Source of the DNA: a virus
DNA length: 44,175 nt
Virus record (IMG/VR): IMGVR_UViG_3300041409_000074
Location: 1 to 44,175 of that record
Direction: 5' to 3' (one strand)
The translations under genes were made by a program, and so were the position numbers. Positions 2,498-34,100 of this stretch are shown one piece after another. The notes below the pieces were generated by a model. The model was not told the origin of the DNA. It ran no database searches and worked only from the letters and a program-made list of their open reading frames with translations. Positions within the stretch are counted from its first letter, which is position 1; every line of letters begins with the position of its first letter.

Positions 2498-4756
2498 TTA
2501 CGCGCCGACATCTTTCGCGGCGGCGCGGTAGTTCATGCCGCCGACGCCGTAGTCGAGCCGCACCTTCCATTCGGTGCCGTCGACCTTCCAGCCCTCCTCG
2601 CTGTCGAGGAAGGGCTCCTCGACGCCGTCCAGGAAGGCAACCTCGATCGCGGGCGCGATCATCGGGTCGGCGAACGCATACCAGGCGGTGCCGGTCAGGC
2701 GGGGCGTGTCGACGATGTCGTCAAAGATGCCGAGCGCGATGTTCATGCGCTGCAGCTTGTTCGCCGTTTCCGGATCGAACTGGCTACCGTTCGTCACGCG
2801 CGCCTGGCCACCCAGGCTCAACGGGCCCAGGAAGATCGACGGGCGGATTTCGAGGAACTCGTTGCCGCTGAGATCCTTCTGCGATCCCATCAGCTGCCGG
2901 ACGGCATCGACCTCGGACACGGTCGGCGCGGCGCCGGGCGTCTTGAGGTTGCCGTGGGCGGCCGAGAAGAACGCATTGCCGTCCTGCGTGTTGGGGTTGG
3001 CGTTGATGAACGCATAGACGTCCACCTCGATCGTCAGCTTGGCGGCGCGGCCGAGGTCGGTGGCGATGTCGGAGAAAGCGCCCAGATCGTCATTGACGAT
3101 CGCCTGCCGCGAAAGGGAGATAATGTTGCCCTTCGTGGTGGCCTTGATCTTCTCCTTCGCGCCGTCCGGGATCGGCTTCTGCTTGAACTCGCCCAGCTCG
3201 TTGACGTTGTCGAGCACGCCGAAGGTGCCCTTCAGGTAACGATTGTGATCGCGGAAGTCGGTGACCGTACCCTTGCCGCAGAAGCGGCTCCACGTGTCCG
3301 GCGTGACCGCGTAGGACGACTGCAGGATCTTGTGGAGGGTGTTCTCCAGGAGGATGCTGAAGTCGCCGGTGCCCTGCGTGATCGCGTTGCGAACGGTGAA
3401 CGCAGCGCCGACGATGTCGCGCGGGTTGCGGGATTGGACGCGGACGCCGGCCATGGTCAGGGCCTCGCGAGCGAGGTCCACCATGCTGACGCCGCGGAAC
3501 TCGCCCGGCTCGATGACGAGCGTCTCACCGCGAGCCTTGGCGGCGCGGGCCACCACGCCGGCCGTGCCCGAGCGGACCATGATCCAGTTGGCGGCGCCCT
3601 GGAGCCACTTCTGGCGCGCATCCTGGCCGACGACGATCGGGCCATTGAAGCCGATCTGCTCGGACTCCTGGCGATCGGCGAGCTTGTCCAGGACCTTCTC
3701 GCGCGCACTGGTGAGCGAGCAGGCACGGTCATTGACCAGCGTGTCGGCGAAGTCTTCGCCGAGGCCGTGCTTTTTCACCATCGCACGAATGCCGGTGATG
3801 CGCTCATGCTCGGCCGCGACGGCGCGGTCGGCCGCGGCCTGCACGTCCGCGGTGGTGATCGCGGCGGGCTCGGTCGTGGTGGCTGGCGCGGGCGCCTGGG
3901 GAGTGGCCAGTGCGCCAGTCGCGGGCAAGGCGTCCTGCGCATTGAGGGCGACTGCGGACTTGGCGATCTTGTCGATCTCGTCCTGCGTGCCGCCGTCCTT
4001 CTGGAACTTGGCGATTGCGGCAACCAGCGCCGCACGGGTCGTGTAGAGGTCCATGATGGTTTCCTTCGATTGAGGCGCGGGAGCGGTCGCTTCCCTTTCC
4101 TTCGGCTTTAGAATGGCGGCGACCGCCGACGAGATTCCCGCTGTCGCGCCGCCGGTGATGATCGACTGGATCACAGCCGCCGGTGACAGGACGAGGTGCG
4201 GGGTTTCCGGGGCCTTGCGGAACCCGAATGAGGAGACGTCGACGGCGGCGGCGGTAAGCGCCTCGCTGATCGACGTGACGAACTTCTGCTCGAGCGCCTG
4301 CTCGGCGGTGAACCACGTCTCAGCGTCGAGCATGGTCTTGAGGTCATCCGCGCTGATGCCGGTCTTTTGCGAATAGATCTTCACCAGCTGGTCGCGGATC
4401 AGGTCCAGCTTGTCGGCGGCGCGGCGAAGCTCCGCGGCGTCGCCCATGGCGACATCCCACGGATTGTGGATCATCATCAGCGCATTGTCGGCGATGACGC
4501 GCTCGGCGCCGACCATGGCAATAACCGACGCCATCGATGCGGCCAGGCCGTCGACGTAGGTGGTGACCTTTCGCCCATCCTGCTGGGCGCGCGAAAGCGC
4601 GTTGAAGATCGCCAGCCCTTCCATGACGAAGCCGCCTGGACTGTTGATCCGGACGTCGAGGTCGCCCTCGCTCTCCGAAATCAGCGGTACGATCGTGTTG
4701 GCGTCGAGACCGTCCCAGCTGTCGCCGACGATCCCATAGATCAGGATTTCAGCCAT
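2498..4756 (-). CDS. Prohead ClpP-like protease fused to major capsid protein
   Basis: One 752-residue protein joins two normally separate functions. Residues 1 to about 190 are a ClpP/S14-type prohead protease: INSPGG at 37-42, the nucleophile Ser74 in GLAASMAS and the catalytic His97 in MMIHNP, followed by a LDAETWFTAEQA block. A low-complexity Ala/Pro/Thr linker and a helical, scaffold-like region (about 250-400) follow. The C-terminal third, beginning near DFSILLENTLHK, is a gpT-like major capsid domain. The start overlaps the portal stop by 8 bases. Such protease/capsid fusions are a known arrangement in some phages; the protease would presumably cut itself off and remove the scaffold during head maturation. 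Confidence 0.9.
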   Translation of the reverse strand: MAEILIYGIVGDSWDGLDANTIVPLISESEGDLDVRINSPGGFVMEGLAIFNALSRAQQDGRKVTTYVDGLAASMASVIAMVGAERVIADNALMMIHNPWDVAMGDAAELRRAADKLDLIRDQLVKIYSQKTGISADDLKTMLDAETWFTAEQALEQKFVTSISEALTAAAVDVSSFGFRKAPETPHLVLSPAAVIQSIITGGATAGISSAVAAILKPKEREATAPAPQSKETIMDLYTTRAALVAAIAKFQKDGGTQDEIDKIAKSAVALNAQDALPATGALATPQAPAPATTTEPAAITTADVQAAADRAVAAEHERITGIRAMVKKHGLGEDFADTLVNDRACSLTSAREKVLDKLADRQESEQIGFNGPIVVGQDARQKWLQGAANWIMVRSGTAGVVARAAKARGETLVIEPGEFRGVSMVDLAREALTMAGVRVQSRNPRDIVGAAFTVRNAITQGTGDFSILLENTLHKILQSSYAVTPDTWSRFCGKGTVTDFRDHNRYLKGTFGVLDNVNELGEFKQKPIPDGAKEKIKATTKGNIISLSRQAIVNDDLGAFSDIATDLGRAAKLTIEVDVYAFINANPNTQDGNAFFSAAHGNLKTPGAAPTVSEVDAVRQLMGSQKDLSGNEFLEIRPSIFLGPLSLGGQARVTNGSQFDPETANKLQRMNIALGIFDDIVDTPRLTGTAWYAFADPMIAPAIEVAFLDGVEEPFLDSEEGWKVDGTEWKVRLDYGVGGMNYRAAAKDVGA

Positions 4757-9153: not shown

Positions 9154-9227
9154 TGGCGGGGGCAGGAGTTGAACCTGCGACCTCCGGATAATGAGTCCAG
9201 CGAGCTACCGGGCTGCTCTACCCCGCA
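9154..9227 (-). tRNA. tRNA-Met (CAU), initiator-like
   Basis: A full cloverleaf folds on the minus strand in 74 bases without an encoded CCA. The acceptor stem has G2-C71 to G7-C66 paired, with a T1/C72 mismatch like the unpaired first base pair of initiator tRNAs. The D arm (AGCAGCCCGGTAGCTCGCT) is of initiator type. The anticodon loop is CTCATTA (anticodon CAU) on stem CTGGA/TCCGG, and the T arm is GCAGG-TTCAACT-CCTGC. The anticodon stem lacks the three G-C pairs typical of initiators (third pair A-T). It lies between the NusG-like gene and terS and would be transcribed with the late operon. Confidence 0.9.
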
Positions 9228-13438: not shown

Positions 13439-13450
13439 AGTGATACAGAT

Positions 13451-13465
13451 TAGCCAATCCGGCTA
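13451..13465. promoter_or_regulatory. Repressor operator O1 (TAGCC-N5-GGCTA)
   Basis: TAGCCAATCCGGCTA is a perfect inverted repeat with 5-base arms. It lies just upstream of the cro start on the minus strand, inside the expected cro promoter. Related sites occur at 13491, 13514, 14146, 14182 and 21938. Confidence 0.75.
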
Positions 13466-13490
13466 GAAATGGAAGCGTGAAATTCCTTAA

Positions 13491-13505: not shown

Positions 13506-13513
13506 TCGCCCCT

Positions 13514-13528
13514 TGGCCGAACTGGCTA
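13514..13528. promoter_or_regulatory. Repressor operator O3
   Basis: TGGCC-GAACT-GGCTA differs from the consensus at one arm base. It is nearest to the cI start (13561), so binding here would be expected to affect repressor expression, as lambda OR3 does. Confidence 0.6.
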
Positions 13529-13560
13529 AATGCCACGCTTCGCACGGGGAGTAGATCGCC

Positions 13561-14142
13561 ATGGAGAACAATATTCGGAAGCTGCGCCAGGAGCGCGGCT
13601 GGACCCAGCAGGAGCTGGCTGATCGCATTGAGGGCAAGCCTCACTTCGCGACCATCCACAAGCTGGAGAGCAACATCCGCGGGCTCACGACGAAATGGAT
13701 CGAGAAGATCGCGAAGGCTCTCGGAGTACCCGAGGAGGCGATCACCACCCCCGCGCGGAGCGCCGACCAGCCGCGCCAGGTCCCGCTTATAGGTCAGATT
13801 GCAGCCGGCGCCTGGAGAGAGGCGATTCACGCGCCCGTGGACTTTGTGTGGACGACGGGTGGCGGGCCCCGCGTCTTCGGCCTCCTGCCTGTCGGCGACA
13901 GCATGAATAGGCTGATCCCCGAGGGCGCTCACGTCCTGGTCGACCCAGACGATGTGGAGCTGAAGGACGGCAAGGTCTACGCGGTGCGGAACGATGCCGG
14001 CGAGGCAACCATAAAGCGCTATCGAAGCGATCCGCCGCGCCTCGAGCCAGTTTCCGACAATGCCGAGCACCAGCCCATATTCTTCGGGCGCGAAGCCTTC
14101 GTCATCATCGGCCGCGTCATCGCGCAGGGCAGAAATATGTGA
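13561..14142 (+). CDS. cI: CI/LexA-like phage repressor (XRE HTH + S24 peptidase)
   Basis: The 193-residue repressor has an N-terminal XRE helix-turn-helix (residues about 3-58: RQERGWTQQELADRI ... HKLESNIRG). A C-terminal S24 self-cleavage domain carries an Ala82-Gly83 cleavage site in IAAGAW, the nucleophile Ser114 in GDSMN and the general base Lys152 in ATIKRYR. It should maintain lysogeny and be inactivated by RecA-stimulated self-cleavage after DNA damage. It is preceded by a GGGGAG ribosome site. Operator copies flank it on both sides (13451-13528 and 14146-14196), so it should control cro, itself and the downstream operon. Confidence 0.92.
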   Translation: MENNIRKLRQERGWTQQELADRIEGKPHFATIHKLESNIRGLTTKWIEKIAKALGVPEEAITTPARSADQPRQVPLIGQIAAGAWREAIHAPVDFVWTTGGGPRVFGLLPVGDSMNRLIPEGAHVLVDPDDVELKDGKVYAVRNDAGEATIKRYRSDPPRLEPVSDNAEHQPIFFGREAFVIIGRVIAQGRNM

Positions 14143-14145
14143 ACC

Positions 14146-14160
14146 TAGCCATTATGGCTA
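14146..14160. promoter_or_regulatory. Repressor operator O4
   Basis: TAGCCATTATGGCTA is a perfect-arm TAGCC-N5-GGCTA site beginning 3 bases after the cI stop codon. Confidence 0.75.
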
Positions 14161-14170
14161 AAAAGAATGG

Positions 14171-14200
14171 TTGACGAACATTAGCCAGATTGGCTAGCCT
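14171..14200 (+). promoter_or_regulatory. Promoter with embedded operator O5 for the plus-strand operon
   Basis: A -35 box TTGACG (14171-14176) is followed at 18 bases by a weak -10 TAGCCT (14195-14200). Operator TAGCCAGATTGGCTA (14182-14196) fills the spacer and touches the -10, so repressor binding would block polymerase. This is the only evident promoter before the operon that starts at 14327. The remaining stretch to 14326 shows no gene and would be the leader. Confidence 0.6.
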
Positions 14201-14326: not shown

Positions 14327-14950
14327 GTGAACGCTCAATCTCGCATTGCGACCACGGCGCCGCCCACCAGCGTGCCGCTGCCCACGCTCCGAGAGCGCTG
14401 GGAGCATGCCCGGCAATTTTACGCCGAATCCTGCAGGGCGCTCGACGCCCTCGGCACCGACTATGAAGACGCCGCACTCGATGCCGCCGTGGACATCATG
14501 GTCGCGGGATTCGACCCGCTGATGCTGACCCCCGCGCCCGGATCGGCCGAAGTCATCGAGAAGCTCGACTTGCTCCGGCATCGCTTCGGTGCCCGGCACG
14601 ACTGCAGCCTCGAAATACCGAACACCGTGCTCGCGGCGATCGTCGACGACATTCGGCGGCTGGCACCGCCCCCGGCCGACACGGCGCGCTGGGACACGGC
14701 ACTCGCGGAATATCAGACCGCGACCACCGCCGTCGAAGCCATCCCCGACGAAGACGAGGATGCGCAGATGAATGCGGTCACGATCGCGACCCGCGCCTTG
14801 GAGGCGCTGATTGCGATCCCCGCCCCCGACAACGCCGCCTTTGCGACCAAGCTGCGCATCATCGACGACGAAGGCTATCAAGGCGAGGCCCGCGTCTGGG
14901 GCGCGGTCATCGCCGATGCACGGCGCCTCGGCCCGACGGTGTCGGCATGA
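14327..14950 (+). CDS. Hypothetical protein, first gene of accessory operon
   Basis: The GTG start at 14327 follows a GGGAGA ribosome site. The 207-residue product is mostly alpha-helical and acidic, with repeated Ala-rich helices (DAALDAAVDIMVAGFD; AVTIATRALEALIAI) and a segment DEDEDAQMN in the middle. There is no signal peptide, membrane segment or known motif. It is the first gene behind the operator-controlled promoter and ends in an ATGA overlap with the next gene. The function is unknown; the position suggests expression only when the repressor is absent. Confidence 0.75.
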   Translation: MNAQSRIATTAPPTSVPLPTLRERWEHARQFYAESCRALDALGTDYEDAALDAAVDIMVAGFDPLMLTPAPGSAEVIEKLDLLRHRFGARHDCSLEIPNTVLAAIVDDIRRLAPPPADTARWDTALAEYQTATTAVEAIPDEDEDAQMNAVTIATRALEALIAIPAPDNAAFATKLRIIDDEGYQGEARVWGAVIADARRLGPTVSA

Positions 14951-15420
14951 GCGGCGCCCAGCAGCCCGGCCTCCGGTCGTTCATCGTCTATGATGAGCTT
15001 CCGGCTGGCCACGTCGCCCACGTCCTGAGAGGGGGCGAGGCCGACCCGCACATCATGCCCGGCGAGGTTGCGGTCATCGATCCAGCTCAGCGGGAGCCTG
15101 CCGAGCGCGAATTGTTCCTGATCCAGTTTCAGGCGCGGCGGCCCGAGGAGGCCGATCGACATCGCCGGATCGTCGAGGCTCGGCAAGACTTCGGCGGCTG
15201 GATGGTCGCGGCGGTCGCCGGCCAAGCGGTCATCAACCTCGCCACCGGGCGTCCGCTTGAGGGCAGGGACCGGGTCCGTCTTTGGGACGGGCCTTACCCC
15301 GCCGACTACCTCGCCAACATGCTGCTCGGCAGCGTCGTCGGCATCCTGAAAACAACCTTCGAAGAACCGCGCCGGGCCGCCTCGGCGGCGCCGGCCGCAC
15401 GCCCAGGGAGGCCGCTATGA
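14947..15420 (+). CDS. Hypothetical protein, possible degenerate S24-like fold
   Basis: The protein has 157 residues. The order MPGEVAVIDP ... ELFLIQFQ ... VRLWDGPYPADYL ... LLGSVVGIL resembles the strands of S24/LexA peptidase domains (PGDxVxVD ... GxVVGV), but no Ser/Lys pair is evident where the catalytic residues belong. The protein at 16412 shares the DGPY and G-x-VVGI segments, so the two may be distant paralogues. It has no HTH. Both ends overlap neighbours by 4 bases. The function is unknown; the fold assignment is inference. Confidence 0.7.
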   Translation: MSGAQQPGLRSFIVYDELPAGHVAHVLRGGEADPHIMPGEVAVIDPAQREPAERELFLIQFQARRPEEADRHRRIVEARQDFGGWMVAAVAGQAVINLATGRPLEGRDRVRLWDGPYPADYLANMLLGSVVGILKTTFEEPRRAASAAPAARPGRPL

Positions 15421-16415
15421 GGTTTTCAAATTCGATCGCATGGACGACGGCCCGCGCCGCCCACGAGTCTGCCTACGCCGCTCACAACCTGTTCGCCAGC
15501 GCGGGCGACGACGGCATCAAGTCCGGCGGGAGCGCCGAGGCGGATGCGGCATCGGCGGCGGAATATGCCGCCCTCAACCACCTGTTGCTCCTACCCTGCG
15601 ATCACCCGCTCGACATCGCCGAGAAGCTCACGATCGTCGAGCAGCGGGACGTCACCAATTGGGATGTTTGGGATGACGTGCGGGCCCGCATTGATGCCGA
15701 CCTCCGCGCGATGGCTCGGCCATCGGCATCGCCGGAGATGGCCACCGCCTTCGCCCGCTGGGCAGCGGCGCGGCTGATACACTTCCAGCCTGGAATGCAC
15801 GATGGCACCGAGGAGGCGTCGGAGGCGGCGTCGGCCGCGTATAGCGAGGCCTTCCAGGCGCTACATGCCGAGCCCTGCCGCACCCCCGGCGACTTCATCA
15901 TCAAAGCCTACACGAACCTGCTCGACGAGGTCGGAAGCTCGACCCAGGTCGAACGCGGCTCGCCATTCGAGTTCGACGTCTACGAGCCCAGAATGCCAGA
16001 TGGCAGCGGGCATGACGACCATGCCATCAAGGCACAGATCCGGGACATCGGTGAGACTGACCTCGGTCGGTGCATGATGATCTTGGGACGGGTCGACTTC
16101 GATGCGGCGGCTTGGGTTGCCACCGTCAGGCGTGCCGAGGCGCACGTCCACGTGATGCTGCACGTGGACGGCAAGCAGAGCCTCAGCTTCGCGATGTACA
16201 CGGGGCCCGGTTACGGGCGCGGCATCGAGCACGACAGCCCGCTCGACAATGCCCGGCTGCACAACCTTCTCGCACTGACGGCCGGCGGTCTCGGATATTC
16301 CGACGAGCGCCTAGCAGCCATCGCCGACGAGATCGTCGCCAACCACCCCGACATGGTCGTCCACACCGGGACGACCTCCGATCACCAGCTTCCGGTCGCA
16401 GAGGCGGCGGAATGA
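15417..16415 (+). CDS. Hypothetical protein, 332 residues
   Basis: The start is ATG at 15417 (MRFSNSIAWTTARAAHES), which overlaps the previous stop in an ATGA junction; a longer in-frame extension lies wholly inside the upstream gene and is rejected. The N-terminal half is helical and Ala-rich. The C-terminal half has strands with HVHVMLHVDGKQSLSFAMYTG and a final helical region (YSDERLAAIADEIVANHPDM). There is no recognised motif. It is a middle gene of a tightly coupled operon and the function is unknown. Confidence 0.75.
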   Translation: MRFSNSIAWTTARAAHESAYAAHNLFASAGDDGIKSGGSAEADAASAAEYAALNHLLLLPCDHPLDIAEKLTIVEQRDVTNWDVWDDVRARIDADLRAMARPSASPEMATAFARWAAARLIHFQPGMHDGTEEASEAASAAYSEAFQALHAEPCRTPGDFIIKAYTNLLDEVGSSTQVERGSPFEFDVYEPRMPDGSGHDDHAIKAQIRDIGETDLGRCMMILGRVDFDAAAWVATVRRAEAHVHVMLHVDGKQSLSFAMYTGPGYGRGIEHDSPLDNARLHNLLALTAGGLGYSDERLAAIADEIVANHPDMVVHTGTTSDHQLPVAEAAE

Positions 16416-16882
16416 ACGCCCTCGTCCAAATCAGGCCGGGTAGCGCCATCACGCCGCCCGCGGCGGGCTTCGAGCTTTCCGGACTTTCGATCTTCACGGC
16501 CATCCCGGAACATCGTCACGGCATCGTCGCGATGCGCGGCATGGTGGTGGTCTACGCGACCGATCTGATCGGGCGTGAAGGCATCATCGAGGGCGCCTTC
16601 TATGTCAGGGAGTCGCAGCGACCTCCCTCTTGCCTGCCATGGGCAACTTGGCTGCGGGAAGCGGTAGCCGACGAGGCGCAGCGCCGCGTCGTCGGTCCCC
16701 TCAGCCCGCTGACCATCCGCCGAGAAGTCGTCCAGACGATCCGCTGGCCCCGCCACGACGACTGGGCGGTCCGGTTGGAAAGCGGCTGGGTAGATGGCCC
16801 CTATCACGATTGGGCCTTCGGCCACGATCTCATCGGCAAGGTGGTGGGCATCTACCATCCAGGCGCGGCGGGCGCCGCATGA
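16412..16882 (+). CDS. Hypothetical protein, possible degenerate S24-like fold
   Basis: The start is ATG at 16412 (MNALVQIRPG) in an ATGA overlap. The 156-residue product includes HGIVAMRGMVVVYATDLIG, a middle segment WPRHDDWAVRLESGWVDGPYHDW, and a C-terminal strand DLIGKVVGIYHPG. The last is the pattern that ends S24/LexA-type domains, and the gene at 14947 has a similar order. No Ser-Lys dyad is evident. It may be a DNA-damage-independent relative of repressor C-terminal domains; this is inference and the function is unknown. Confidence 0.7.
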   Translation: MNALVQIRPGSAITPPAAGFELSGLSIFTAIPEHRHGIVAMRGMVVVYATDLIGREGIIEGAFYVRESQRPPSCLPWATWLREAVADEAQRRVVGPLSPLTIRREVVQTIRWPRHDDWAVRLESGWVDGPYHDWAFGHDLIGKVVGIYHPGAAGAA

Positions 16883-17871
16883 TCCAGCCGCTCAACTACA
16901 CCCCGAAGGTGATCGAGGCCTTTGAGGGATATCAGCAGACGGCCACGCCGCTCTCCCGCATCGCCTTCGGTTACCTCCTCGGCAAATTGCGCCAGGCGCA
17001 GGTATTCCTCCTGCCCGATCACGGCGAGCTGCTCGAGCGTGACAAACCGCGGCCGGAAATGCCGGGGCTGGTGTTCAAGCCGCCCTATCCGGTGACGGTG
17101 CTGGAATATGCATCGCCGCCTGGCCGCGCCGAAACGCCCGGCATGGACTGCCCGTGCCCGAAGCGTGTCGTTCTGGCTTGGGAATGGATGGATGACGCGC
17201 CGCCGCAGCTGCGGCCATGGATCCCGGCCGACCTTGGCGCGGGCGTGGTGGTGGCATCCATAACCTACGTCGACTCGACGCAGATGTGGATCCCAGTCCC
17301 GACCGCTGCGCACTTCGCGTATGACGATGAATGGGTGCCGGCGAGCAGCGTGCCGGTGGGGCCCCTTCGGCAGGCGATGATCGACACGCGCCGAATCCGG
17401 CCGACAATTAGTGCGGGCACGACCTATCGGACCCGCCCCTTCGCCCTACTCCCCGAAGCGCTAGCTGGAATGTGGCAGGCCGTGGGCGAGGCCCGCGCCA
17501 CGGATATGCTTTGCGCCGATCTGATGGACGAGCTGAATGCCTATTCGGACTTCAGCTTCGCGCTCGCATGCCGGAACGTCACCGTTGAAAGCCACCCTGC
17601 GCCGTCGCGGCTGAACGCCGCGCGCGCAAAAGCGGGGAAGGCGCCGCTGTTCGACCACCATGTCCTGAAGCTCTCAGACGCCGACGGCGCGCGCGGCACG
17701 GCAGTTGGCGAGCGCGAGCACGGTAGCCCGCGCCCGCACCTCCGGCGCGGCCATATCCGCCACCTCCGCCACCTCGGCCCAGATCGCATCACGTGGGTGA
17801 ATGCCTCCATGGTTCGCGGGCACGGGCGCGGCTTCGCCCGCAAGGACTACGCGATCGGAGTCGGGACATGA
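16879..17871 (+). CDS. Hypothetical protein with C-terminal His/Arg-rich motif
   Basis: The start is ATG at 16879 (MIQPLNYTPKV), again in an ATGA overlap. The 330-residue protein has a Pro-rich first half with two Cys in GMDCPCPKR, a helical middle (LCADLMDELNAYSDFSFALAC) and a striking C-terminus, SPRPHLRRGHIRHLRHLGP followed by ITWVNASMV. A terminal RRGHxRxL...WV module of this kind is seen in other uncharacterised phage proteins. It could bind nucleic acid or metal, but no function is established. Confidence 0.75.
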   Translation: MIQPLNYTPKVIEAFEGYQQTATPLSRIAFGYLLGKLRQAQVFLLPDHGELLERDKPRPEMPGLVFKPPYPVTVLEYASPPGRAETPGMDCPCPKRVVLAWEWMDDAPPQLRPWIPADLGAGVVVASITYVDSTQMWIPVPTAAHFAYDDEWVPASSVPVGPLRQAMIDTRRIRPTISAGTTYRTRPFALLPEALAGMWQAVGEARATDMLCADLMDELNAYSDFSFALACRNVTVESHPAPSRLNAARAKAGKAPLFDHHVLKLSDADGARGTAVGEREHGSPRPHLRRGHIRHLRHLGPDRITWVNASMVRGHGRGFARKDYAIGVGT

Positions 17872-18068
17872 TCGGGAGCCTGAAGCGCGTGATCGGGCGG
17901 GTCGAGCCCTATTACGACTGGGGCGCCAGAACGACGTTCCGCATGGACGCCAAGCGCGAGGAAGACGTTACCGAGGGCGAGGTCCGCTTCTTCGAACTCC
18001 AATGGCTCGGCCTGCACTTCGAGGTGCAGGTCGGCAGGACGCCGCCGCGGGCGGAGGACGCGATATGA
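17868..18068 (+). CDS. Small hypothetical protein
   Basis: A 66-residue protein that starts in an ATGA overlap at 17868. It is probably one small alpha/beta domain: VEPYYDWGARTTFRMD, then an acidic KREEDVTEGE turn, and strands EVRFFELQWLGLHFEVQVG. There is no membrane segment or known motif. It is coupled to both neighbours; the function is unknown. Confidence 0.7.
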   Translation: MIGSLKRVIGRVEPYYDWGARTTFRMDAKREEDVTEGEVRFFELQWLGLHFEVQVGRTPPRAEDAI

Positions 18069-18241
18069 GCGCCGCCGACGCCGCCTACGAAACCTATGCC
18101 GAGGAGGTTCAGCGCCTCGTCCGAGTCGAGCGTGACCCGAAGGCCACGCCGGGGCAGCGCCGATCGCAGGCGCATATCGTTGCCAGGGCATGGGGCCACT
18201 TCCTGCGCACCTTCACGAAGGCGGAGGCAGCCGATGGGTGA
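18065..18241 (+). CDS. Small helical hypothetical protein
   Basis: A 58-residue protein from ATG 18065 (MSAADAAYETYAEEVQRL), overlapping the previous gene by 4 bases. It appears to be two amphipathic helices joined by PKATPGQRR. No known family is recognised. It was chosen over longer in-frame readings that lie inside the upstream gene. Confidence 0.65.
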   Translation: MSAADAAYETYAEEVQRLVRVERDPKATPGQRRSQAHIVARAWGHFLRTFTKAEAADG

Positions 18242-18563
18242 CCTCTTCGACACCTATCCGGATCACCCCGGCTTCAAGGCCCGCGAGACGTCGGCCGCGG
18301 CGGCGGCGGACATGGCCGAGACCGCGCCGATCCTGCGCGCCCGCTGCCTGGCGGTGCTGGAGCGATCGAACGGCCTCACCGCCGACGAGGTCGCCGGCCG
18401 GCTCGGCCTGTCGATCCTGTCAGTGCGCCCGCGAATTTCGGAGCTGACGCGGCTGAGCAAGGTCCGGGACAGCGGGCACCGGCGCCGCAACGCCAGCGGA
18501 AAGAATGCCATCGTCTGGGCGGCGATCCAGCCTGCCCGGCTCAATCGGGAGAATTTCGGATGA
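18234..18563 (+). CDS. Winged-helix DNA-binding protein
   Basis: The start is ATG at 18234 (MGDLFDTYPD), overlapping the previous gene by 8 bases. The 109-residue protein has a winged helix at about residues 35-85: LRARCLAVLERSNGLTADE, VAGRLGLSILSVRPRISEL, and a wing LSKVRDSGHRRRN. Such small MarR-like domains occur often in phage accessory operons as regulators or as partners in DNA modification. Its place just before the Ntn hydrolase gene is notable. The DNA target is unknown. Confidence 0.75.
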   Translation: MGDLFDTYPDHPGFKARETSAAAAADMAETAPILRARCLAVLERSNGLTADEVAGRLGLSILSVRPRISELTRLSKVRDSGHRRRNASGKNAIVWAAIQPARLNRENFG

Positions 18564-19129
18564 CGTGTATTGTTGCCGTGGCCCAAGGGGGCGTCGTCTG
18601 CATCGGCGGCGATAGCGCGGGCGTCGCCGGCTATGGCCTCACGCAGCGCGCCGACGAGAAGGTTTTCGAAAATGAGCGCTACCTCTTCGGCTTCACCAGC
18701 AGCTTCAGGATGGGGCAGCTCCTGCGGTATCGCTTCAAACCGCCCAGGCGGCACCCCGATGACGATCTGGTCAAATTCATGTCGACGGAGTTCGTCGACG
18801 AGGTTCGCAAGTGCCTGAAGGAATATGCCTACACGACCATCAAGGACTCGGTCGAGGAGGGCGGGACCTTCATCGTCGCGATCGAAGGGCGCATCTTCAA
18901 GATCGAGAGCGACTTCCAAGTCGGGGAGAGCATTCACCCTTACGATGCCTGCGGCTGTGGCGAGGATCTCGCGCTGGGCGCCTTACACGCGATCCATCGC
19001 TATTCGGCCGGCGAGCATCTGGTCGACCCGAAGATGATGGTCCAGATGGCCCTGCAGGCCGCCGAGCAATTTAGCGCCGGTGTTCGCGCGCCCTTCCACA
19101 CCCTATCATCGAAGGCGCCTGCGGCATGA
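18560..19129 (+). CDS. Proteasome-type Ntn hydrolase (HslV/20S beta-like)
   Basis: The 189-residue protein begins MTCIVAVAQGGVVCIGGDSAG. After removal of Met1 the N-terminal residue is Thr1, and Asp17 (GGDSAG) and Lys33 (DEKVF) fall at exactly the positions of the proteasome beta-subunit catalytic triad T1-D17-K33. The following FGFTSSFRMGQLLRY matches the strand-loop-helix after Lys33 in proteasome subunits. Length is close to HslV (about 175). The enzyme should be a self-compartmentalising peptidase or a stand-alone Ntn hydrolase. No HslU-like ATPase is encoded in this genome, so any unfoldase would be the host's. It sits in the coupled accessory operon between a winged-helix protein and a ParB-like protein. 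Confidence 0.8.
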   Translation: MTCIVAVAQGGVVCIGGDSAGVAGYGLTQRADEKVFENERYLFGFTSSFRMGQLLRYRFKPPRRHPDDDLVKFMSTEFVDEVRKCLKEYAYTTIKDSVEEGGTFIVAIEGRIFKIESDFQVGESIHPYDACGCGEDLALGALHAIHRYSAGEHLVDPKMMVQMALQAAEQFSAGVRAPFHTLSSKAPAA

Positions 19130-20298
19130 GCGGGGACCCAACCTGGACGAACAAGCCGGGCGCCACGATCCCGGATTGGCTCGCGCCGCATATGGTCGGC
19201 GCGCAAGAGGTGAACGGCACCCTCATGATCCGGACCCGCTGCGGCAAGCAGTCGGCCCATGCCCGCGTCCATGTCGGCAATCTGGTCATCCTGCGCGCCG
19301 GCACCGCCTACACGGCGACGCCCGAAGAAGCTTCAGCGCGGATCGATGCGCTGGAGGCGGAAGACGCTACGCCGGTCGTGAACATCGGGCCCGGCAAATC
19401 CTGCCAGGCAGGCATGACCGGTCCCGGCGTCCAGCCCAGTCGCAAGAGCAGGGTAGCTGAGCAGGCGAAGGGCCTGACCCGCGCGGGCGCGCCGCGCAAG
19501 ATTGCCTATTCCCCGCCGCTCGGCGCGCGGCCGACTATCGAGTGGATCCCGGTCGGCGACCTATCGGTCGACGAAGCCTATCAGCGCCGAACCGACAATG
19601 ATGCTTCGCGCCGGCTGATCGCCAGCATCGCGGCCAAGTTCGACTGGCGGCTGTTCGGCATCCTGCTCGTGTCGCGACGGCCTGATGACACCCTCAAGGT
19701 GATAGACGGCCAGCACCGCTGGTCGGCTGCGGCGGCTCGAGGCGACATCGACCAACTTCCCTGCGCGCTGTCCAGGTTCGGCACCGCCGAGGAGGAGGCC
19801 CGCTTCTTCATCGTCGCCAATCGCGCTCGCAAGCCGATGAACCGGCTCGACGACTTCCACGCCGCGCTCGCCGCCGCAGACGACGATGCGCTCGAAATTC
19901 AGCGGTTGGTGAACGAAGCGGGTCTGGCCGTCGCGCGCAACACCGCGTCGAGCGCCTGGGCGCCAGGCGAGATCGCGTTCACTGCCGCCATCGCACGCGC
20001 CTTGCGCATGCACGGCGCCGCAGTCGTCTCGGCCGCGCTGACCAACATCGCCGAGGCATTCCCTGACCAGCGGCTCAATCACGGCGGCTCGATCTTCAGC
20101 GGCCTCGTCAAGATCTTTGCCCACCCGCCCGAGGGCTTCGATCCGGACCGCCTTTTCAAGGCCCTGCTCGCATTCGACGCCGACGGTTGGGGCAGCTTCA
20201 TGACCGGCCTGAAGGGCGGCGACACCCGCGCCAGCGCCATGCGGCAAGCAATACTGGAGGCCTATAGCGAGGCGCCGGCCGAGCAGGCAGCGGAATGA
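19126..20298 (+). CDS. ParB-like (Srx-fold) domain protein
   Basis: The 390-residue protein has an N-terminal unknown region (1-120) and a central ParB/Srx-like domain. IEWIPVGDLSVDEAYQR at about 138 is followed by VIDGQHRWSAAAARG with the ParB box near residues 192-205, then a helical C-terminal region. The domain binds CTP in chromosome-partition proteins and acts as a nuclease or kinase in others. Here it lacks an evident HTH after the box, so it is not a typical partition ParB. It may act on DNA or a nucleotide in the accessory operon. Both ends overlap neighbours by 4 bases. Confidence 0.8.
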   Translation: MSGDPTWTNKPGATIPDWLAPHMVGAQEVNGTLMIRTRCGKQSAHARVHVGNLVILRAGTAYTATPEEASARIDALEAEDATPVVNIGPGKSCQAGMTGPGVQPSRKSRVAEQAKGLTRAGAPRKIAYSPPLGARPTIEWIPVGDLSVDEAYQRRTDNDASRRLIASIAAKFDWRLFGILLVSRRPDDTLKVIDGQHRWSAAAARGDIDQLPCALSRFGTAEEEARFFIVANRARKPMNRLDDFHAALAAADDDALEIQRLVNEAGLAVARNTASSAWAPGEIAFTAAIARALRMHGAAVVSAALTNIAEAFPDQRLNHGGSIFSGLVKIFAHPPEGFDPDRLFKALLAFDADGWGSFMTGLKGGDTRASAMRQAILEAYSEAPAEQAAE

Positions 20299-20555
20299 CA
20301 GAGCCCCAGCTCAGCTGCCTGGAGTTCATCCGGGAGCGCATCCGCCGCGACGGCCTAGCGCCGACCTATCCGCAGATCGCAGAGCATCTCGGCATCAAGT
20401 CCAGGAGCAGCATTTCCGCGATGGTGCAGCGCCTCGTCCGCGATGGCCATCTGCTCAAGACCCGTTCGGGACACCGAAACCTGCGACTGCCCGGTGCGGA
20501 CCTCGCCGTGGTGCCGACCGAGGACCTAAGAGCCGAATTGGAGCGTCGAGCATGA
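20295..20555 (+). CDS. LexA-type HTH protein without peptidase domain
   Basis: An 86-residue protein almost identical in layout to the LexA DNA-binding domain: QLSCLEFIRERIRRDGLAPTYPQIAEHLGIKSRSSISAMVQRLVRDGHL, described here in parts, then RNLRLPG. There is no self-cleavage domain; the chain ends with LRAELERRA. It could compete with host LexA at SOS boxes or bind a phage site. It starts in an ATGA overlap with the ParB-like gene. Confidence 0.8.
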   Translation: MTEPQLSCLEFIRERIRRDGLAPTYPQIAEHLGIKSRSSISAMVQRLVRDGHLLKTRSGHRNLRLPGADLAVVPTEDLRAELERRA

Positions 20556-20809
20556 TGACAGCCCCACCAATCCGAATGCACCGCGTTAAGGCGATGGCCG
20601 ACTGGCTGGACACGATCCCGCCAGACCCGCCGTTCCACAGCCGGCCGGAATTTCGATTCTATGCCGACCTCACAGACGCCGAGTTTGACGCGGTGCAGGC
20701 GCTTATGCGCCAGCGCGCCGAGGAAGCTCTTGGCGAGGCCGGCCGCCTCCAGGCCGAGCTAGACCGGCGTGCCGCGAACCATGACTCCGAACCTCCGGAG
20801 GCGGCATGA
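20552..20809 (+). CDS. Small hypothetical helical protein
   Basis: The 85-residue protein starts MMTAPPIRMHRVKAMADWLDTIPPDPPF and ends with a long charged helix (TDAEFDAVQALMRQRAEEALGEAGRLQAEL). There is no known motif. It overlaps both neighbours by 4 bases and lies between two DNA-binding proteins. A dimerising accessory role is possible. Confidence 0.65.
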   Translation: MMTAPPIRMHRVKAMADWLDTIPPDPPFHSRPEFRFYADLTDAEFDAVQALMRQRAEEALGEAGRLQAELDRRAANHDSEPPEAA

Positions 20810-21033
20810 TCCGCGAGAACGATAATATCCTCCGGCTCAAGGATGTCCTCAAGCGGGTGCCGCTGGGCCGGTCAACGCTCTACCGCCGGATGGATGCGGG
20901 AACCTTCCCGCGACAGGTTGCGCTCGGCTCCGATCCGAACGGCAACGCGACGTTGGTTGGCTGGTACGAGGCCGACATCAATGCATGGGTCGCCGACCCG
21001 ACCGGCTGGCGGCCGGGCGAAGCGGCCTCCTGA
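20806..21033 (+). CDS. AlpA-like regulator / putative excisionase
   Basis: A 75-residue protein with an AlpA/MerR-like HTH: ILRLKDVLKRVPLGRSTLYRRMDAGTFP, given here in two parts, followed by GWYEADINAWVAD. In the CP4-57 prophage AlpA controls the P4-type integrase, and the fold is that of lambda Xis. Since this genome has a P4-type integrase 1.2 kb downstream and no other Xis, an excisionase or recombination directionality role is likely. It is the last gene of the coupled operon. Confidence 0.8.
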   Translation: MIRENDNILRLKDVLKRVPLGRSTLYRRMDAGTFPRQVALGSDPNGNATLVGWYEADINAWVADPTGWRPGEAAS

Positions 21034-21920: not shown

Positions 21921-21952
21921 TTGATTTTCCTGCCGTTTAGCCATATTGGCTA
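21921..21952 (+). promoter_or_regulatory. Integrase-region promoter with repressor operator O6
   Basis: A -35-like TTGATT (21921-21926) is followed at 17 bases by TATTGG (21944-21949). Operator TAGCCATATTGGCTA (21938-21952) covers the -10. The arms match the cI/cro operators exactly, so the same repressor probably represses transcription towards the integrase. Confidence 0.6.
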
Positions 21953-22059
21953 GCGTAAGCTGTCCCAGACAGTCCCGACCAATCGCACGAAGGGTGGGGG
22001 TATTCTGGGGGTAGCGAAACCGAAATTGGGGGTATTATCCCCCCAAGGCGGAGGGAAAG

Positions 22060-22218
22060 ATGCCACGGAAAATCTTCGACTACGGCAAGGGAATCGAGTG
22101 CTGGCTGCTCGACGGCGAGTTCTACGTCTACGGCGTCACGCTCAGCGGTGACCCGCGCGTCTGCCATTCTGAGGGAATGGCACGCGAGCTGGCGGCGGGA
22201 GGCGTGTCATGTCGCTGA
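22060..22218 (+). CDS. Small hypothetical protein upstream of integrase
   Basis: A 52-residue protein beginning MPRKIFDYGKGIECWLLDGEF, with a GGAGGGAAAG ribosome site directly before the ATG. Segments FYVYGVTLSGDPRVCH suggest a small beta-rich fold. It overlaps the integrase start by 10 bases, so the two are co-translated. The function is unknown; small partners of integrase or excisionase are often found here. Confidence 0.65.
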   Translation: MPRKIFDYGKGIECWLLDGEFYVYGVTLSGDPRVCHSEGMARELAAGGVSCR

Positions 22219-23561
22219 CCGATATTCAGGTTCGCAAGGCCGCCCCCGGTGACCGCGACTATAAGCTGGCCGATGGCGGCGGGCTCTTCCTCCTTGTCAC
22301 GAAGTCCGGGGCGAAGAGCTGGCGGATGAAATACCGCTATGCCCGGCAGGAGAAGCTGCTGACCTTCGGGCTCTACCCCGAGGTGTCGCTTACCGAAGCC
22401 CGCGACCGGCGCGACGAGGCGCGGAAGCTCCTGCGCGACAATATCGATCCCGGCCTGGAAAAGGCCAAGGCGAAGCTGACCGTGCTGGAGCAGGCGGGCC
22501 AGACGTTTGAGAAGCTGGCCCGCGAATGGCACGACGCCGAGAAAGGCCGCTGGTCGAAGATCCATGCCGGCGACGTCTTGCATAGCCTCGAGCGCGACAT
22601 CTTCCCCGAGATCGGCTCGATGCCGATCAGGCAGATCGACGCCCCGATGGTGCTGGCCGCGCTCCGCAAGATCGAAGATCGCGGATCCATCGAAACCGCG
22701 AAGCGGTGCCGCCAGCGCATCTCGGCCGTGTTCGTGCGCGCCATCTCGGAAGGCAAGGCGAAGGACGATCCGGCCGCCGTCGTGATGAAGGCCCTCAAGC
22801 CAAAGCCAAAGGCCGGGAAGCAACCGGCGATCGTCGACCTCGAGAAGGTACGCAAGGTGCTGGTCGCCGCCGAGACGGCCGGCGCCTATCCGGTCACGAA
22901 GCTCGCATCGCGCACACTCGCCCTGACGGCGGTTCGGCCGAGCATTGTCCGCTGCGCCGAGTGGACGGAGTTCGAAGAAATTGACTGGGACGTGCCCGCC
23001 GCACCCGGCAGTCACCCCAACGCCCTCTGGCGCGTGCCTGCGGCCAAGATGAAGCTGATCCTGGACCGCAAGGACGAGGATGCCTTCGAGCATCTGGTCA
23101 CGCTCTCCTGGCAGGCGGTGGCCTGCCTGCAGGCGGTCCGCCGCCTGACTGGACGCACCCCGCTAGTCTTTCCGAATCAGCGCTTCAGCCACCGGCCGCT
23201 GAGCGAGAACGCGATCGGCTATCTCTACAACCGCGTCGGCTACCACGGGCGCCACGTCCCGCATGGCTGGCGGGCCGCGTTCTCGACGATCATGAACGAG
23301 CATTGCGAACGCGAGGCCCGCAAGGCTGGCCAGCCCCTGCTGGCGCAGCTCGACGCCAAGGTCATCGACATGACGCTCGCCCACGTGCCGAAGGAGAAGG
23401 TCGAGGCCGCCTATAACCGCGCCACCTTCATGGAGCGTCGGCGCGAGCTGGCGCAGGAATGGGCCGATATGCTGTGCGAGGGCCTGTCGTCCGCCGAGGA
23501 TCTGTTGTTCGGCCCCAGGCGCGGTGTAGGCGGCTCAGCCGACCTTCCGCTGGCCGCTTAG
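22209..23561 (+). CDS. int: Tyrosine integrase, P4 type (DUF4102 arm-binding domain)
   Basis: The 450-residue recombinase has an N-terminal DUF4102 arm-binding domain (YKLADGGGLFLLVTKSGAKSW; LTFGLYPEVSLTEAR), a core-binding SAM-like domain, and a C-terminal catalytic domain. Visible catalytic residues are Arg243 (TAVRPS), His352 and Arg355 (HGWR), His392 (LAHV) and the nucleophile Tyr402 (AAYNRA). It integrates the phage into the host chromosome, usually at a tRNA or tmRNA gene for this class. It follows a repressor-controlled promoter and the TGGGGGTA array, and is full length for the family. Confidence 0.93.
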   Translation: MSLTDIQVRKAAPGDRDYKLADGGGLFLLVTKSGAKSWRMKYRYARQEKLLTFGLYPEVSLTEARDRRDEARKLLRDNIDPGLEKAKAKLTVLEQAGQTFEKLAREWHDAEKGRWSKIHAGDVLHSLERDIFPEIGSMPIRQIDAPMVLAALRKIEDRGSIETAKRCRQRISAVFVRAISEGKAKDDPAAVVMKALKPKPKAGKQPAIVDLEKVRKVLVAAETAGAYPVTKLASRTLALTAVRPSIVRCAEWTEFEEIDWDVPAAPGSHPNALWRVPAAKMKLILDRKDEDAFEHLVTLSWQAVACLQAVRRLTGRTPLVFPNQRFSHRPLSENAIGYLYNRVGYHGRHVPHGWRAAFSTIMNEHCEREARKAGQPLLAQLDAKVIDMTLAHVPKEKVEAAYNRATFMERRRELAQEWADMLCEGLSSAEDLLFGPRRGVGGSADLPLAA

Positions 23562-31120: not shown

Positions 31121-34100
31121 TCACGGTTTCGGGTTTGAGGGGTTGTGGGTCAGAATGGAGCGGCCGGCCTCGTTGCCCGCCGCGTAGGTGCGCTGCCCGA
31201 CGATGATATGGGCGACTTCGATGTTCCCGATCGCGAGCGCCGTGCAAGCCTCCCAGCGGAAGCCGTCCGCGTCGCAGACCGGCAGCTCCTGGCCCGCTAT
31301 ATCTGCCACCCGCGCAAGCGACCCATCGCGGAGGGTGATAGGGGTGGACTCCGCGAGGCTTAGCTCGATGCCGGATGCCGACCGGAGCAAGTAGGCCCGT
31401 GCCGGGGATGGTGAGTTGCGTTCGCAGGCGAACCACTCTGTGCCCTCGCGATCGGAGCTGAGCACGCGGAGCCGGTCACCGGCGCGGATCTCGCTTGCCG
31501 GAACGAAGCCACGCTCAAAGGTCTCCACCAGGGCGTCGGAGGCCACGCAGGTCCCGCCGCCACCGCCGCCGCCGCCGCTTCCTCCGCCAAAGGTCGGGTA
31601 AGAGACTGAGCAGGATCCGATATAGACCCTGGCGTTGTTAGAGTAGATGTCTGCCGCGGTCGTCGTGGCAACGAGGGTCTGCGCGCCGCCCGCGAACGAC
31701 GGGTCGTCGACGTAGAGATAGTAATCGACGATCGTGCCGCCGGTCCCGGTCGTGTTGACGCTCATCGCGCTATAGGAGACGGTGCTGGAGCCAATCAGGC
31801 AGGAGCCGGCGGCGACGGAGATAGTCGCCGTCGCCGGAGTGCCCGTCGCCGAGGTGTACGAGATCGCTCCGTTGAATTTGTAGCCGAGGTTCATCGCCAT
31901 GATCGGCTGCGAGTTGCGCGGGTCGCCGAGGCGGTATCCGGACCCAGCGACCTCAAGGCCACGGTCGACGTACGGGCGGAACTGGAGGCCGAGCGGGCCT
32001 GCGAACGAATTGCACGCGAAGGCACCTCGGAACGTCAACCCAGCGCCGACCGCCACCGTCCGCATGACAGTGCGGGTGCCGTTCGCCTGGTCCCGCACGT
32101 AATAGACGTTCTTGCCGTCGTAGACGACTGAGAAGACGTCTCCTGCGACCCAGCTGCCCATATTCACGCCGCCGCCGCCGCTCTCATAATAGTAGACGAG
32201 CCCGCCCGAGTTGATGAAGCAGGCGTAATCGATCTGGTTGTAGTTGTTGGCCGCGTTGGTGATGACCCCTTGGTCGAGACCGACCATGTAAGTGTCTGTC
32301 GTGCCGGAGGTCGTGAACCGGACCTCCGCATTGCCCGTCAACGTCTCTTGTGTGTAGCCGCCGTTGGTCCATGCGCCGGCAACGAGGGGGGTGATGGTGT
32401 TGCCGACGAATGAGAGCTTGGCCGTGTCGACCGCCACCAATGTGAGGGCCGTGCCTGCGTTATTGGCGGGCTTGCCCGTGCCGCCGATTCGCGACCAAGC
32501 ATTCTCGCTCCACGGCCCGTAGAGGATGTCGATGACCGAAAGGGCCGCGCCGTTGTTGTGGTAGTCCAGCGTCTTGGGGTAGAACTTGAGGCCAGCCGCG
32601 ACGCCCGTGATCGTCGCCAGGACGACGCCGTCGACGATGGCGTAGATGCTCGTCCCGTCGTAGACGAGCGACATGCGGCTGGCTGCGGTAAGGCCCGATG
32701 CCGTCCCCGTGAACGTCACCGACGCGCCCGTCTTCAGGTACCAGGTATAGCCGCCGCTGCCCGAAACGATGATGGCCATGTTGTAGAGGTTGGCCGTGTC
32801 GGTCACGCTGGTTGCGTCGTCGTCTAGGGCGATGCAGGTTAGCCAGCTGCCGCCCGCCACCGCGTTGATGATGGACGAGGTCACGAAGGCCGAGCCGAAC
32901 TGGGGCACGCCGACTGTCCCGCCCTGGAAGGCGCCGTGCGTCCCACCGCTCTTGTAGGTCGAGTTGCCGGTGATCGTCGTGAAGCTGCCGATCGCCGTCA
33001 GGGCGCCAGACGTCCCGGCGTTGTCCGCTGGCTTGCCAGTCCCGCCAAGGCGCGACCAGGCGTTCTCGCTCCAGGGACCGTAGAGGATGTCGGTGAAGCC
33101 ATTCGGATAGCCGACGACGCCGTTGTAGTAGAAGTCCAGCACCTTCGGGTAGAGCGTCTGGCCCGCCGTGGTGGCCCACTGGGTCTTAACGGCGCCGTCG
33201 ATCACCCCGTAGAAGTTCACCCCGTCGTAGAGGAGGAGCGCTCGGCTGTTGACAGTAAGGCCGGTGCCGGTGCCCGTGTCCCTCTGAATGCCGTTCGTCG
33301 TGTAGAGATACCAGGAGTAGGCCCCGGCGACACCGCCATTGCCAGTGATGACGCGGAACATGACGTCGGAGGTCGCATTGGTGAAGCTCGTGTTGTCGCT
33401 ATCGAGAACTAGGCGGGTCTCGTAGCCCCCGAGGCCGGTCGGGTTCTGGATGCTCGATGTTATGAAGGCCGTCCCGTATAGGGCCTGGCCGACGCATCCA
33501 CCCTGCTCGGCGCCATGCGTTCCCGTGCCAGGCTTGGACATGGTGTTGCCGACGAGGGCCGAGTTGGCCCCGATCAGGGTCAGGATGCCCGATGTGCCAG
33601 CGTTATCGGAGGGGCGCCCGGTGCCACCCACATCGATCCAGATGCTGCTGTTGAACGGGCCAGCCTTCAGGCCGGTCGCGTAGAGCGTGCCTCCGTTGTA
33701 GTCATGCCACTTAGGCCACAGCGTGAACGTCGGCGACGTGGCGGGGATGTCCGTGCCCAGCTGGGTGCCGTTGACGAAGGCCCGGAAGCGGATGCCGTCG
33801 TACGCGAGCCGCACCTTGCCGACCACGCCTGCGCCCAGGCTGCCCGAGGCCACCGTCACGTTGTTGGTGTAGACCGTCCAGGCTCCCGTGGACTGCAGGA
33901 ACTGGACGATGACCGCCATGCTGGCGAAGGCGAACGTGGTCGCGTCCTCGTCCAGGCTGATGAAGGTGTAGCCACCGGCGACGACGTCCGCCTCCACGGT
34001 CTGCGGGCCGGTGATGGCCACGCCGCGGACGCACGCGTTGAAGTCGGCGCTTCCCGCTGCCCTGAGGAACGTGTTGCCCACGATGCCAGAGGCCTGCGAG

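Follow-up and report, generated by a model that had tools for sequence, protein, structure and literature searches.

Fuchs, Alva and Lupas described 22 new proteasome-like families in 2021; AAH, one of them, was already reported in phages, with neither a co-occurring AAA+ partner nor a telling gene context found for it (PMC8665760). It was among the families named without a known function or informative gene context, and our reading of the literature turned up no assay of an AAH protein. The best-studied relatives, BPH and Anbu, have no protease activity in standard tests (PMC5777263). BPH has no propeptide, its start methionine is removed, epoxomicin binds its Thr1, no partner is known, and the residues of the HslU interface have been lost (PMC5777263).

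The AAH-type gene studied here lies in the window, that is, the whole 44,175-nucleotide stretch of viral DNA that was analyzed (IMG/VR record IMGVR_UViG_3300041409_000074). The layout of the record is lambda-like, with cI, a coupled operon, and then an integrase gene:

13450..13466, candidate CI operator upstream of cI
13513..13529, candidate CI operator upstream of cI
13561..14142, plus strand, CI-type repressor (phrog_4, E 5.6e-41)
14145..14161, candidate CI operator CTAGCCA-N3-TGGCTAA, upstream of the AAH operon
14181..14197, candidate CI operator TTAGCCA-N3-TGGCTAG, after a -35-like hexamer, TTGACG, at 14172
14327..18241, plus strand, seven ATGA-chained operon genes upstream of the winged-helix gene (starts 14327, 14947, 15417, 16412, 16879, 17868, 18065)
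18234..18563, plus strand, small winged-helix/HTH protein (phrog_1123), its stop overlapping the AAH start (ATGA)
18560..19129, plus strand, AAH-type proteasome-like N-terminal threonine peptidase (ATG start, 189 aa)
19126..20298, plus strand, ParB-like/DUF6551 protein (phrog_1033), its start overlapping the AAH stop (ATGA)
20295-20555, plus strand, LexA-type HTH protein, in the coupled operon
20552-20809, plus strand, small ORF, in the coupled operon
20806-21033, plus strand, AlpA/excisionase-like protein, in the coupled operon
22209..23561, plus strand, integrase, at the end of the cI-operon-int arm

The AAH gene appears intact. Its translated product (ORF 18560-19129, plus strand) starts with MTCIVAVAQGGVVCIGGDSAGVAGYGLTQRADEKVFENERYLFGFTSSFRMGQ and follows the pattern MTCIVAVAQGG...GGDSAG...RADEKVF...FGFTSSFRMGQ, with threonine directly after the start methionine and no N-terminal propeptide. 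In numbering that includes methionine, the catalytic residues are T2, D18 and K34, with G44 as the oxyanion glycine; counted from the threonine with methionine off, they are Thr1, Asp17 and Lys33. The original prediction had claimed this triad and its match in number to that of HslV, and both are correct, as HslV also has T1/D17/K33. Conservation of the three residues among relatives had been set beforehand as one of two points on which the claim could fail. In a set of 134 non-identical relatives, Asp18, Lys34, Gly44, Arg50, Gly132 and Pro178 are present in every sequence and Thr2 in 132; the two exceptions are a gene truncated at a contig end (L067) and one with a mis-set start (L143), so that Thr2 is found in every relative with an intact start and the claim withstands this check. 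The further claim, that FTSSFRMGQ matches the 20S and HslV sequences, has to be withdrawn: HslV has a GFAGG-type sequence there, and FTSSFRMGQ is a signature of the AAH subfamily. The position of proteasome Ser129 is Cys133 in our protein, according to a profile alignment to BPH and HslV, and among the relatives it is Cys in 116/134 and Ser in 15/134. With Cys at this position in most AAH sequences, the chemistry may differ. Arg50, which follows the oxyanion loop, is invariant in the set, and together with C133 it could alter catalysis or specificity.

Sequence searches placed the protein close to the proteasome-type peptidases. PHROG_1040, annotated "peptidase HslV family", matches residues 1-182 (E 5.7e-22), and BPH was found in the PDB with the single sequence (9e-4); with a profile of 110 relatives, the PDB matches were BPH (2.2e-7) and HslV (3.3e-7). 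A Pfam search with the protein returned no match, and its score against the curated TIGR03690 model of the 20S proteasome beta subunit, 16.2 bits, is under the 191.9-bit cut-off. An AlphaFold2 model built with the 110 relatives (pLDDT 95.5, pTM 0.90) predicts a strand core with four flanking helices (49-57, 70-88, 135-149 and 157-171) and a short C-terminus, which corresponds to a compact group I subunit with H1-H4 and without insertions or a C-terminal H5. In Foldseek, the top hit of the model was BPH (5ovt, TM 0.80), followed by HslV (0.6-0.7) and then 20S beta subunits, and among viral models there were phage proteins at TM 0.85-0.91. Given the PHROG_1040 match, the PDB profile matches and the agreement of the modeled fold, the likeness to proteasome subunits is more than chance. 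In the model, the product has a proteasome-type Ntn fold. The structure prediction and comparison with HslV that had been proposed thus point to an Ntn hydrolase, a class that a different fold would contradict, and the original assignment gains from a predicted fold that houses an intact, conserved active site.

The operon comprises 13 genes, including AAH at 18560, with starts from 14327 to 20806 and mostly 4-base ATGA overlaps. The longest ORF of the winged-helix gene begins at 18096, and its ATGA-coupled start is 18234. None of the seven genes in 14327..18241 (plus strand) gave a confident family match. As had been described from the sequence, winged-helix (phrog_1123) and ParB-like/DUF6551 genes flank AAH with ATGA overlaps, and the description of a repressor-controlled coupled operon agrees with the CI-type repressor and candidate operators that we found. 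The palindrome TTAGCCA-N3-TGGCTAA has five matches in the record, where 0.57 would be expected, and four of the five are around cI; the candidate at 14181..14197 would overlap the operon promoter (TTGACG at 14172). Since the operon is ATGA-coupled and preceded by two such palindromes, AAH is probably an early gene. Judged from these motifs, the AAH operon is most likely repressed by CI, early, and released on derepression. A fifth operator-like palindrome (21937-21953) lies by itself upstream of the integrase gene, at a distance of about 250 bases. A search of the 44-kb record for AAA or AAA_2 domains, run with positive controls, found none, which agrees with the earlier claim of no ATPase partner for a record that may be a fragment.

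The opposite strand encodes a primase, a helicase, an antiterminator, terS, terL, portal, and a head protease/capsid protein. The 752-aa protein at 2498-4756 (minus strand) matches phrog_133 (head maturation protease) and phrog_4523 ("major head and protease protein"), and because these matches cover most of its length, protease and capsid protein seem to be fused. This strand also has a tRNA-Met (CAT) gene in the lytic arm (9154-9227) and, at 31121-36559, a gene for a 1812-aa protein that matches phrog_8917, a family of unknown function, over its first 405 residues.

The search for homologues of the AAH protein gave hits in 206 phage records, 26 plasmids, 163 IMG/VR stretches (80 of which were kept for analysis) and 66 bacterial genome loci. 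For the genome scan, the single protein as query found nothing; the profile used was the closer 8-row alignment, the 15-row alignment being too divergent. One related contig of phage origin, L016, keeps the order wHTH-AAH-ParB (65-79% identity). A conserved partner gene was considered and rejected, as the two neighbors recur only in L016, with ParB weakly also in L117. Elsewhere, AAH is directly beside terS, terL, portal, head protease or capsid genes in 25 of the 80 viral loci and is flanked by head/packaging genes on both sides in 16 of these, in varying slots of the cassette (terS|terL, terL|portal, portal|protease). Loci with AAH inside or at the edge of a head/packaging cassette include L001, L022, L036, L039, L052, L063, L065, L066, L069-L071, L088 and L095. 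With the remaining same-strand genes of these loci as the reference, the excess is modest (23 adjacent vs. 16.5 expected, p 0.007); the excess of genes flanked on both sides was set aside, as the loci are centered on AAH. On the AAH tree, adjacency to head genes switches 20 times, vs. 20.8 with shuffled labels. The location of AAH relative to head genes is therefore without phylogenetic memory. A gene that moves this freely is unlikely to depend on one neighbor, and its movement, with head/packaging genes beside it in less than a third of the loci, argues for a self-sufficient enzyme.

The most surprising part of the analysis is outside the viral record: AAH is linked to the NifA regulon. Cellular AAH sequences are nested among viral ones on the tree (15 changes of label, of which starred branches force at least 6), and the rhizobial clade is strongly supported. 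The copies in nodulating rhizobia are carried on symbiosis plasmids; in Sinorhizobium americanum and its kin, the gene is located between nifQ/rpoN and nifS/nifV/nifW/fixAB. The near kin of the rhizobial copies include an IMG/VR contig whose protein is the same as that of a Mesorhizobium loti gene (L018 = L101); this M. loti sequence, classed as viral, is 67-73% identical to the four rhizobial copies tested. The rhizobial loci are L012, L011, L010, L097-L122, L155 and L157. Among 16 non-redundant upstream regions of rhizobial AAH genes, 12 contain a strict sigma54 site (-24/-12) no more than 200 bases from the ATG, at -111 to -124 and typically about -117; shuffled sequences gave 0. A NifA box (TGT-N10-ACA) is present within 400 bases in 11/16, with about 1 expected, and both elements occur together in nine. 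No strict sigma54 site was found upstream of phage AAH copies, the sole entry listed on the phage side, L118, being a Sinorhizobium genome. In Paraburkholderia phymatum, AAH is BPHY_RS37925/Bphy_7682 on plasmid pBPHY02 (L014 6001-6591), with a sigma54-like site 502 bases and a NifA box 790 bases upstream. A published RNA-seq table lists Bphy_7682 as a hypothetical protein with a log2 change of -2.52 in nifA-mutant bacteroids (PMC8305402), which is a 5.7-fold fall.

The gene nifH is present in 5/5 and 29/48 AAH-bearing genomes vs. 14/249 in a sample of one rhizobial family, in a comparison where genomes were picked for having AAH and the clades are related. Many of the nifH-negative AAH genomes are actinobacteria or have copies without nif context. 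In the family sample (n=249), AAH occurs in 8 genomes, nifH in 14, and both in 3, including the center genome, and so few co-occurrences indicate that the nif link belongs to one AAH clade and not to the whole family. We do not claim independent take-ups by alpha- and beta-rhizobia, since a single clade is not rejected (p-AU 0.47), and the argument from symbiont take-up is further limited by several Frankia that have AAH without nifH. The Frankiaceae sequences (L119, L123-L125, L131, L132, L136, L142) form a clade of their own, with nifH in 5/8 genomes; none of the tested nif/fix genes was found in the fetched flanks of these eight loci. On balance, we lean towards the view that a phage-borne AAH was taken over by nodule bacteria as a symbiosis gene that NifA and sigma54 activate in bacteroids. 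If so, a proteasome-like peptidase would work in nodules during nitrogen fixation.

For the viral gene, the reading that we hold to be best, and reasonably probable, is that of an accessory threonine peptidase that is made early, needs no ATPase and acts on a narrow range of substrates. By analogy with BPH (PMC5777263), host methionine aminopeptidase would remove Met1 and expose Thr1, which would attack peptide bonds with the aid of Lys33 and Asp17, and the backbone of Gly43 (Gly47 of the proteasome) would hold the oxyanion. The coupled operon lies between cI and int and has two candidate CI operators over its start; it would be shut in the lysogen, and AAH would be made on infection or induction. 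The enzyme would work without a dedicated ATPase, probably as a small homo-oligomer or ring, and its substrates may be a narrow range of peptides or unfolded proteins, as proposed for BPH. It would be cargo that helps the phage and not a fixed part of the phage machine. The parts of this reading that the analysis shows are the AAH signature, the conservation of the active site, the predicted fold, the layout of the operon with its operator sequences, and the mobility of the gene. Against the reading stand the standard tests in which BPH and Anbu had no protease activity and the Cys that most AAH sequences have at the Ser129 position. The independence from an ATPase has points against it, as the record is possibly incomplete and a host ATPase may serve as partner. 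One could speculate that infected cells and bacteroids, which both remake their protein content under another program, are settings that suit a peptidase for leftover or unfolded proteins.

Other roles for the gene have to be weighed against this peptidase. The original prediction suggested a protease for counter-defense or host takeover, with a single host protein as its target. An early CI-controlled operon among unknown accessory genes would suit this idea, as would the behavior of AAH as mobile cargo and its wide spread in phages and prophages. However, the rhizobial cellular copies belong to a nitrogen-fixation regulon and not to phage conflict, AAH is within the late head cassette in many phages, and no defense or anti-defense gene was identified beside it, which leaves the idea unlikely. 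We also see little probability in a part for AAH in head assembly or DNA packaging, for example in trimming a scaffold or portal protein. The head/packaging neighbors in 25/80 loci and the adjacency excess are what would be expected of such a role, but the slot in the cassette varies, these cassettes carry their own head protease, cellular copies occur without phages, and in our record some 10 kb separate AAH, in its early operon, from the head genes, which are on the opposite strand. With a modest excess and no phylogenetic memory, a head-assembly partnership is weakened as a general explanation.

The enzyme might instead pair with one of the AAA+ unfoldases of its host, for example HslU or ClpX, for ATP-dependent proteolysis. 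Both are common in proteobacterial hosts, and the predicted HslV/BPH-type fold would be compatible with such a pairing. However, AAH is just about 18-20% identical to HslV, the loss of HslU-interface residues in BPH, the closest solved relative, speaks against it (PMC5777263), and no co-occurring AAA+ is known for AAH (PMC8665760), so that we regard the pairing as improbable. A protein that keeps the Ntn fold could also be a connectase-like ligase/transpeptidase or a small-molecule amidase. Connectase proves that the family is capable of such chemistry (PMC8665760), BPH and Anbu are without measured protease activity, and the Ser129-to-Cys change and invariant R50 would be in keeping with it. 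The model of AAH, however, retains H1/H2, which are absent in connectase and present in ring-forming members (PMC8665760), and the inserted helix pair of connectase is not predicted. This makes a non-protease quite doubtful.

The contexts found here, of a CI-controlled early gene, free-moving cargo and a NifA-controlled rhizobial gene, make the function of AAH testable, and root-nodule bacteria with a NifA-controlled copy are open to genetic work. If the enzyme is self-sufficient, it would also be relevant to how compartmental proteases worked at a stage when they had no ATPase partners.

Among known systems, PHROG_1040 is a broad cluster of phage proteins, and among its annotated members are T5-like proteins that are distant, at about 31-35% identity. 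HslV (ClpQ) has the fold in common with our protein at the low identity given above, with Ser at the Ser129-type position and a GFAGG oxyanion loop where AAH has Cys and GFTSS; its partner HslU has no gene in the viral record. BPH (PDB 5ovs, 5ovt, 5ovu) is the closest solved fold (TM 0.74-0.80), and both proteins are without a propeptide or known ATPase. However, they are only 21-25% identical, and Lys33 and the Cys of AAH correspond to Lys37 spacing and Ser139 in BPH. A long acidic pore loop has been described for BPH. PPH is likewise phage-borne and of group I, but it is shorter, at about 140 residues, and has no helix H2, whereas our protein, with 189 residues, helix 70-88 and both helix pairs, is excluded from it by length and H2. 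With AAH as described, it has in common group I membership, the absence of a propeptide, the T-D-K active site and no ATPase partner. The described hosts (Alphaproteobacteria, Actinobacteria, and Firmicutes via phages, plus phages themselves) agree with the distribution of the relatives found here, and nothing was found that sets the protein apart. Judged from described features and distribution, it fits the AAH subfamily, and, as a compact group I subunit with H1-H4, it is not a new kind of protein. The AAH family and its phage copies are thus known; what is new is the ATGA operon preceded by candidate CI operators, the free movement of the gene, and the rhizobial copies linked to sigma54 and NifA.
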